64,000 nucleotides of DNA from a bacterium BMS3Abin14. Lineage in GTDB: Bacteria > BMS3Abin14. Shown piece by piece: positions 9,089 through 12,517 of the stretch. The stretch's first letter is position 1; each line of letters begins with the position of its first letter. Below the pieces are notes generated by a model. It saw only the letters and a program-made list of their open reading frames with translations. It searched no databases and had not been told where the DNA came from. The DNA lies in NCBI GenBank assembly GCA_002897695.1, contig BDTG01000041.1:1-64000 (forward strand). Reading direction: 5' to 3'. Position numbers and translations under genes: made by a program.

Positions 9089-9976
9089 ATGCTTTTAGCA
9101 AAGGATTTCAAATCCCACTACGAATTCACCGCCGAGGAGGAACAGCTTCTCAAGGAGCTTGCTCCTCTCATGGAAATACACAAGGAGGAGTTCGCCGAGG
9201 ATTTTTACGGGCATGTCATGTCTAACAAGGAAACCGCCGAGTTTTTCCCGACCGAGGCGAAGCTTGATCGGCACAGGAAGATGATCGCCGGCTGGTTCAT
9301 GGATCTGTTCGGGGGCAAGTACGACGACGCGTACATCCGCAATCTAAAGCATGTGGGGAAAGTCCACGTGAACATCAAACTTGACGGCCACTTCGTGAAC
9401 ACATCCATGGCGCGGGTACGACGCTTCCTCTCAGAGGTCATCGAATCGCACGCCCCGGAGGAGAAGCGGGAAGAGGGCCTCATCGCCGTCGGGAAAATCC
9501 TGGATATCAACCTGGATATCCTGACCAGTTCCTACAGACAGGAGGAGTTGAAAAAATACTTCCTGTCCTTCCGCGTTGAAAAAACCCTTGTAAACTGGAT
9601 AGAGCGCTTCACCCACGGGCTCAATCTCATCCTGGCCCTTGCGCTGGGAGTGGTCTCAGCGGCGGTCGTGGTCCTTTTCGTGCACGACGTCATCGGGATC
9701 TTCCGGAAGGCCGATCCGGACAGCATCATCGCCGCCCTCGGCTCACTGCTGATCATCTGGTTGATGATAGAGCTTCTCGATACTGAGATCTCCCACCTCA
9801 AGGGGAGAAAACTTCAGATCAAGGTCTTCGTCGGGGTCATCATGGTCGCGTTTCTCAGAAAGGTTCTAATCGCGGGCTTCCGGCACGAGGAACTGCTCGG
9901 CTTCGCCAGCAAGGTCGGCACACTGCTGGTCCTCGGGATCGTCTACTGGCTGGTCGTCCGGGCCGAAAGGGAATGA
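9089..9976 (+). CDS. Protoglobin domain fused to PsiE-like membrane domain
   Basis: 295 aa. Residues 1-160 look like a sensor globin/protoglobin: acidic helices, FYGHVMSN, WFMDLFGGKYDDAYI, then LKHVGKVHVNIKL (about 88-100), where the second histidine sits in the V-G-x-x-H pattern used by globin-coupled sensors for the proximal heme ligand. Residues about 180-295 hold four membrane segments with the PsiE-like LSSLLIIWLMIELLDTEISHL style motif (ELLDTEI). Heme would sense O2, NO or CO in the cytosol and the membrane part would pass the signal on. The output is unknown. It overlaps mobA by four bases. Confidence 0.82.
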   Translation: MLLAKDFKSHYEFTAEEEQLLKELAPLMEIHKEEFAEDFYGHVMSNKETAEFFPTEAKLDRHRKMIAGWFMDLFGGKYDDAYIRNLKHVGKVHVNIKLDGHFVNTSMARVRRFLSEVIESHAPEEKREEGLIAVGKILDINLDILTSSYRQEELKKYFLSFRVEKTLVNWIERFTHGLNLILALALGVVSAAVVVLFVHDVIGIFRKADPDSIIAALGSLLIIWLMIELLDTEISHLKGRKLQIKVFVGVIMVAFLRKVLIAGFRHEELLGFASKVGTLLVLGIVYWLVVRAERE

Positions 9977-10773: not shown

Positions 10774-11697
10774 ATGGGTAAGATCTACAATGACATCACG
10801 GAACTTGTGGGCGGAACGCCGCTCCTCAGGCTCAACAAAATCACCGGGGATGTTGACGCCACGGTTCTGGGCAAGATGGAATCGTTCAACCCTCTTTCCA
10901 GCGTCAAGGACCGTATCGGGCTCAGCATGATCGAGGCTGCTGAACGGGACGGGCACCTCGACTCTGACACGGTGATCGTTGAGCCGACCTCCGGCAACAC
11001 CGGAATAGCGCTGGCCTTCGTCGCGGCCGCCCGCGGCTACCGCCTGATCCTCACCATGCCCGACACCATGAGCATCGAAAGGCGTAAACTCCTGGTAGCG
11101 CTGGGCTCCGAACTTGTTCTGACCCCCGGATCGGAAGGGATGAAGGGCGCCATCAACAGGGCAGTCGAGATCGCCGCCGAACTTCCCTCGGCTTTTGTTC
11201 CCCAACAGTTCGAGAACCCCGCCAACCCCGAGATCCACCGAACGACCACCGGGCCGGAGATCTGGAACGACACAGACGGCAAGGTGGATATCCTGGTCTC
11301 GGGCGTGGGTACCGGCGGGAGCCTTACGGGCATCGGGGAGTTTCTGAAAGGGAAGAATCCAGATGTAAAGATTATAGCCGTTGAGCCGGTGGAAAGCCCC
11401 GTTCTCTCAGGGCGCCCCCCCGGACCACACAAGATCCAGGGAATCGGGGCCGGTTTTATCCCAAAGGTGCTCGACACGAAGATCATCGACGAGGTCGTCA
11501 CGGTAACCTCAGAGGATGCTTTCGCCACGTCCAGGAGGCTTGCCAGGGAAGAGGGCGTGTTTGTCGGCATATCCTCAGGCGCTGCGGCTCACGCCGCCGT
11601 CCGGGTGGCCGCACGGCCTGAAAACAGGGGGAAAGTCATCGTGGCCATCCTGCCCGACGGCGGCGAAAGGTATCTCTCAACACCCATGTTTGAATAA
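10774..11697 (+). CDS. cysK: Cysteine synthase (O-acetylserine sulfhydrylase A)
   Basis: 307 aa, full length. The PLP lysine lies in [11 protein letters not shown] (residue 45 or so), the substrate loop is [10 protein letters not shown], the PLP-phosphate glycine loop is [12 protein letters not shown], and [11 protein letters not shown] is the conserved C-terminal segment. It makes cysteine from O-acetylserine and sulfide. An AAAGGAG site precedes the ATG. The 190 bp upstream are strikingly AT-rich and contain TTGACT (10686-10691), a plausible -35 box, though no good -10 box is clear. It is followed 40 bp later by the selenoprotein gene. Confidence 0.95.
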
Positions 11698-11737: not shown

Positions 11738-12517
11738 ATGTCGGTTTTCCGGATAAAAAGCACTGCTCCCATACTTCTGGCCGTCTTGCTCTTGGCGTCT
11801 GCCTGCTCGCCCGGCAAAGGGCCGCCCCAAACCCGTGTCGGATTCGATAAGGATGTCGTGCAAACAGTCCGGGAGAAGATGGGTCAGATCCAGGCGCCGG
11901 TCACCCTTCAGTTCTACCGGGGTGGCCCCGGCGAGAAAAATGCCGAGGAAACCGCTGCACTCCTGGACCTGATAAAGAATAGCTCCTCACAGATCGAGAT
12001 AAAGGAACATAACCTTTTCAGGGATTCGCAGCTTATGGGACCCCTGGGCATCAAGCACGGCCCTGTGATAATACCCCGGGGGCCGAACCCCATTGACATC
12101 AGCTACTATGGGTATCCGGCACGAAGGGAATTGGAGCCGTTTCTGGATGGCGTTCTCATCGCCTCCGGGCAGATTCCCCGGCTTTCCGCAAGTACCGAAA
12201 CCTTCCTGAAAGAACTGGACCAGGACCTTCTCATAAGGGTCTTTGTGACCCCCGACTGACCTTACTGTCCCGGGTCGGTTCGGCTCGCCTACGCTTTTGC
12301 CGCAAAAACCCGGTACGTTAAAACCCAGGTTTTCGAGACCCACAACTATCCTGATGTGGGTGAACAGTTCAAGGTCTTTGTGGTGCCGAAGTTGTGGTTT
12401 AATGACCGCGTTTTCATGGACGGATCCGAACCGGAAAGGTTCATGGTCATGGCCGCCCGCCAGGCCCTGGATACGTCAATCCCTCCGGGAAGTCTCATCG
12501 TACTGGAGGAAAAATAG
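11738..12517 (+). CDS. Selenocysteine-containing lipoprotein disulfide oxidoreductase (PDO/glutaredoxin-like)
   Basis: 259 aa with TGA at codon 174 (12257-12259) read as selenocysteine; the frame stays open to TAG at 12515. Residues 1-22 are a lipoprotein signal with Cys23 as the lipidated residue. Residues 45-165 form a first thioredoxin fold without a CxxC. The second fold opens LLIRVFVTPD-U-PYCPGSVRLAYAF: in the protein-disulfide-oxidoreductase family this position is VFVTPTCPYCP, so U174 replaces the first active-site cysteine and C177 is the second. VVPK supplies the cis-proline (Pro217). No Shine-Dalgarno is visible; an extended -10 (TGCTACAAT) ends 7 nt before the ATG, so the mRNA may be nearly leaderless. 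Expected role: thiol-disulfide exchange at the membrane. Confidence 0.85.
12257..12287 (+). other. Sec codon TGA and bacterial SECIS-like hairpin
   Basis: Downstream of TGA (12257-12259) a six-pair stem CGGGTC/GGCTCG (12271-12276 with 12282-12287, including two G-U pairs) closes a five-base loop GGTTC. The loop begins with G, contains GU, and starts 17 nt after the TGA, within the range known for bacterial SECIS elements bound by SelB. Confidence 0.65.

Follow-up and report, generated by a model that had tools for sequence, protein, structure and literature searches.

Does the single in-frame TGA of a thioredoxin-fold gene from the bacterium BMS3Abin14 end that gene, or does it encode a selenocysteine (Sec)? 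The gene lies in the window, i.e. the whole 64,000 nt stretch analysed here (positions 1 to 64,000 of contig BDTG01000041.1), and very probably encodes a Sec-containing lipoprotein, as judged from the sequence features described below. Its frame is opened by an ATG at 11738, with no obvious Shine-Dalgarno sequence 5' of it, and the sole in-frame TGA (12257-12259, codon 174) is followed by 85 more codons and by a TAG at 12515-12517. Under translation table 11, this frame yields only a 173-aa ORF, as the original prediction had anticipated; standard gene callers are expected to report this ORF, and annotation pipelines would probably truncate the gene. The features of the locus are as follows.

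10774..11697, + strand: cysteine synthase (CysK/CysM type, PALP; Pfam PALP E 6e-75), 40 bp upstream of the oxidoreductase gene
11738..12517, + strand: predicted Sec-containing lipoprotein protein disulfide oxidoreductase (PDO), TGA read through, 259 aa
11738..11806, + strand: residues 1-22, putative lipoprotein signal peptide, followed by Cys23 as the lipid anchor; hydrophobic stretch ending LLLASA-C
11840..12175, + strand: first thioredoxin fold, devoid of its redox site (YRGGPGEKN where CxxC is usual), from the alignment of 7 members with 18 homologues and the fold model
12257..12259, + strand: TGA, predicted Sec174, which opens the active-site motif (U-P-Y-C) of the second thioredoxin fold; same column in 7/7 members
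12266..12268, + strand: Cys177, putative resolving cysteine; invariant
12271..12287, + strand: bSECIS-type hairpin CGGGUC-GGUUC-GGCUCG with its apical loop at 12277-12281; 11 nt separate it from the UGA codon
12386..12388, + strand: Pro217, cis-proline position (VVP); VP invariant

Reading of the TGA

The original prediction had placed the TGA at the first active-site position of the PDO family and had followed the open frame beyond it to a cis-proline. Both points hold: the product reads VFVTPD-U-PYCP around the TGA, the Sec174 column carries Cys in most homologues, and V-P217 stands at the cis-proline place. C23 and C177 are the only Cys of the mature protein, so Sec174-Cys177 would be its sole redox pair.

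The genes selA, selB, selC (tRNA-Sec) and selD were sought in the genome and all are present. The tRNA-Sec, located on contig 10, scores 72.7 bits (cut-off 47) and is called tRNA-SeC with anticodon tca by ARAGORN. SelA (E 3e-148) and SelB (E 5e-108) are encoded by adjoining genes on contig 29. SelD is also found (E 2e-106), with a TGA within AAGUAAKLGPGDL, the usual Sec place of this protein (L094, G000:C8); selD is thus a further Sec gene here. Elsewhere in the genome, TGA is a genuine stop, as in the ATGA overlap (9973-9976) of the protoglobin and MobA genes, and the genetic code is therefore not changed globally. A scan of the window, with candidates judged by eye, gave no convincing second TGA-interrupted ORF.

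The gene is carried by 7 of 12 phylum genomes examined, the proteins being 39-45% identical to that of the window. Each of the seven members has a single TGA, always in one alignment column, and none has Cys there. These relatives were examined for a stop without conservation downstream; instead, the TGA is conserved and the mean pairwise amino acid identity rises from 0.41 upstream of it to 0.52 downstream. On either side of the TGA, divergence is greatest at third codon positions, as expected of translated sequence. SelA is found in 9/12 phylum genomes, and none of the seven with a completeness of 90% or more lacks it; one genome (G009, 81% complete) has the TGA gene and no SelA match.

The hairpin with a GGUUC loop, predicted 17 nt past the TGA, was recovered and is kept in the seven members, where a sequence identical or close to CGAGYCGGUYCGRCUCG (6-7 bp stem, loop GGUYS) starts 11 nt after the codon. 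All 42 pair cells of the seven sequences are standard, versus 12-41% when the 3' side is slid by 1-3 columns. As variation is slight (one double change), covariation provides no proof: 292 of 500 shuffles score equally high, half of the pairs being invariant at n=7, which makes this comparison uninformative. The window hairpin alone is unexceptional among dinucleotide shuffles (z -0.2 to -0.9), and its total MFE is no better than that of synonymous recodings (59.5%). When the genes are recoded synonymously at the codon usage of the window, 0.5-6.3% of the recodings per gene (7 genes; 4.6% for the window) reach the observed bSECIS-type hairpin. Only the slid alignment and the synonymous recoding are discriminating controls; what sets the hairpin apart is that all seven genomes keep it at a constant position, together with the recoding control, and not its energy alone. 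A published bSECIS model specifies a loop of 3-9 nt, a stem of 4-16 bp, a G in the first two loop positions, a distance of 16-37 nt from the UGA and an MFE at or below -7.5 (PMC13188914). The hairpin agrees with it in stem (6-7 bp), loop (GGUUC or GUU) and distance (17-18 nt); its energy is marginal in the window (-7.0 kcal/mol for the simple hairpin, while the 42-nt fold, at -8.5, passes) and clearer in most relatives. No SECIS family was matched in an Rfam search.

Three other readings of the TGA have to be weighed against these data. An ordinary Cys PDO broken by a change of TGC or TGT to TGA, whether a pseudogene or a sequencing error, would agree with the Cys found at this codon in most homologues and with the lack of the gene in G001, a genome of the same genus. 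However, the same TGA occurs in seven divergent genomes, none of which has Cys, and this excludes such an origin. The higher conservation downstream of the TGA, the conserved hairpin, the complete Sec machinery and the clean absence, without decay, in G001 also speak against it, and its probability is minute. Insertion of another amino acid (e.g. Trp or Gly, under a reassigned code) is hardly credible either: the frame would be open however the TGA is read, but TGA terminates other genes, the column is that of a redox Cys in homologues, selA, selB, selC and selD are present and SelD shows the same TGA pattern, and reassignment is rejected on these grounds. A very unlikely reading, though less so than the other two, is that the UGA is a real stop and that the 173-aa first-fold product is functional, read-through being minor or selenium-regulated. 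Termination always competes at UGA in Sec genes and the TGA comes only after the whole first fold, but this fold, devoid of CxxC, has no redox residue, and selection keeps the second fold, Cys177 and the cis-proline. The bacterium almost certainly reads this TGA as selenocysteine.

Fold, redox sites and lipoprotein signal

Residues 39-240 match NCBIfam TIGR02187 (PDO_seleno_TRX; E 2e-40), with 138 bits versus a cut-off of 185, and all seven phylum members match this model. By sequence comparison, the window protein is thus homologous to TIGR02187, yet outside the curated equivalog. Pfam reports Thioredoxin_3, and phmmer against the PDB matches 1a8l, 2ywm, 2ayt and 1j08. An AlphaFold2 model built from the 7-row alignment (mean pLDDT 84.7) resembles PDOs (Z 25-27.5; 27.5 to 1j08 over 210 residues and 27.2 to 1a8l) and the N-terminal domains of AhpF (Z 21-24.4 over ~200 residues), in agreement with Foldseek, whereas the next-best thioredoxins reach a Z of only ~11. 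A redox motif is expected in each of the two folds of this family. In all seven members, the N-terminal CxxC is lost, a feature that the original prediction had overlooked, and the second site is UxxC; Cys177 and the cis-proline are invariant among them.

Including the phylum, a family member occurs in 87 of 386 genomes, the phylum branch scoring 340-388 bits and the next match 142. Outside the phylum, most members have Cys at the Sec column, and a TGA stands there in about 10 other lineages. The tree, computed on 51 rows, unites the seven members with 100/100 support; the stem of their branch measures 2.05 changes per column. A scan of the genome contigs with the single sequence gave no match and a scan with the alignment gave the phylum members and Cys homologues; no homologue was found in the viral contigs searched, and the plasmids searched contain distant homologues only. 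A cytosolic-looking Sec-PDO (L016, from G096) has one Cys left at its N-terminal site (GDLC) and a second TGA near its C-terminus; it is a possible intermediate towards loss of the N-terminal site.

The Cys at the lipid position is invariant in the seven members and lies behind a hydrophobic segment whose lipobox-type endings, assigned by eye, are LLLASA-C, GLAA-C, LTLTA-C, TVLS-C, TLPS-C and similar. From this pattern, we infer export and lipidation on Cys23. The original prediction had called a lipoprotein an unusual place for a Sec oxidoreductase. The lipobox-like sequence is present and the location is indeed unusual for the family, though not unique, as at least two Sec-PDOs of other lineages, L124 (G296:C42:3400-5300) and L127 (G116:C160:34900-36700), also have lipoprotein signals (CLVAAC and VLLVAC). 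Both retain the N-terminal CxxC and they pair together in the tree apart from the phylum branch (97/85), a grouping that suggests a second move to the envelope.

Gene neighbourhood

The gene order is a hypothetical gene, a protoglobin/PsiE fusion, mobA, the cysteine synthase gene and the PDO gene, followed by rlpA and a peptidyl-prolyl isomerase gene on the opposite strand. It is wholly or nearly kept in G002, G004, G005 and G009 (the G009 stretch examined was not seen to reach rlpA), and G008 and G010, whose contigs are shorter, keep the parts that they cover. The neighbouring cysteine synthase is 70-73% identical in G002, G004, G005 and G009 and is a contig-end fragment in G010. The fusion (9089-9976) is a single ORF that encodes a protoglobin domain together with a PsiE-like membrane domain; it is conserved upstream of mobA-cysK in four relatives.

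In G001 (L135, G001:C9:15000-28000), cysK is 88% identical and the flanks align at 83-84%, but 0.93 kb including the PDO gene is missing between cysK and rlpA, where ~16 bp are left; selA is retained. This is a clean absence, not decay. In G011, cysK is followed by nearly 1 kb of sequence without a PDO gene. The tie of the oxidoreductase to the cysteine synthase is only a shared neighbourhood.

Proposed role and comparison with known systems

Taken together, the working of the protein could be viewed as follows. SelB and Sec-tRNA-Sec, guided by the hairpin just past the UGA, would insert Sec at codon 174. The precursor would then be exported and would receive its lipid on Cys23, so that it is held in the envelope on the periplasmic side. 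The first fold, devoid of CxxC, would act as a scaffold or docking surface, the second holding the only redox pair, Sec174-Cys177. Sec174 would attack a substrate disulfide or peroxide and Cys177 would resolve the mixed selenenylsulfide. Re-reduction would depend on an electron carrier in the membrane. The CcdA-like DsbD_TM protein encoded on contig 27 (E 6e-14), the only protein of this type found in the genome, would be the likeliest carrier and the best candidate redox partner.

A reductive role fed by CcdA is a tentative proposal, to which we give somewhat less than an even chance. The Sec lipoprotein might instead be an envelope disulfide oxidase or isomerase (DsbA/DsbC-like), as could befit a thioredoxin-fold protein that is exported and has a helper fold and a CPYC-like motif; selenols favour reductive or peroxidatic roles, which, like the CcdA-type reductant of the genome, argues against this function and makes it rather unlikely. 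It is conceivable, though doubtful, that the Sec-only, membrane-anchored, single-site PDO branch is peculiar to this lineage and serves as the envelope counterpart of the AhpF N-terminal domain, that it takes its electrons from a CcdA-type carrier and hands them on to a substrate (peroxidase, methionine sulfoxide or disulfide), and that the dead first fold is its docking platform. The gene being cleanly absent even within one selA-keeping genus, its role could be tested by comparing relatives.

The Sec form of TIGR02187 is already known, and no new selenoprotein family is described here; because of this, the finding is less surprising than it first seemed. Reviews of the prokaryotic selenoproteome list a 'Homolog of AhpF N-terminal domain (Grx-like domain protein)' (TIGR02187, UxxC, ABB15282.1; PMC9312934, PMC13188914), two such Sec proteins have been counted (PMC1794560) and the glutaredoxin-like Sec protein CHY_0740 of Carboxydothermus hydrogenoformans has been recovered (PMC1914089). 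A search of open-access papers found none on a lipoprotein Sec-PDO, and the anchored, one-active-site branch of this little-studied bacterial lineage appears undescribed.

The PDOs of Pyrococcus furiosus (1a8l) and Aquifex aeolicus (2ayt) have the same fold (Z 27 over ~210 residues) and their second active site aligns with that of the window protein, but it carries Cys, not Sec, and they have no signal peptide. The first site is present in their family. The AhpF N-terminal domain (1zyn, Z 24) likewise comprises two thioredoxin folds, of which only the second has a working site; it is cytosolic, has Cys instead of Sec and is fused to a flavoprotein reductase, whereas the 259-aa window protein stands alone, without the FAD/NADH reductase domain of AhpF. 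A further close parallel is with Sec TIGR02187 proteins such as CHY_0740 (ABB15282.1), which share the two thioredoxin folds, the Sec at UxxC and bacterial Sec decoding. The Sec members of other lineages that were compared (CHY_0740 itself not among them) keep their N-terminal cysteines (CxxC except in L016) and, except for L124 and L127, have no lipoprotein signal, while the window branch is made of lipoproteins, has lost the first CxxC and does not reach the NCBIfam cut-off (the window protein scores 138 bits, 185 being required). What is new is a 100%-supported, Sec-only branch, with a lipoprotein signal in 7/7 members and one remaining redox pair, in which it resembles the AhpF N-terminal domain. 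The known Sec family thus gains a well-supported, apparently exported and lipid-anchored branch that its curated model refuses; all known copies of this protein have retained Sec and lost their other redox site.
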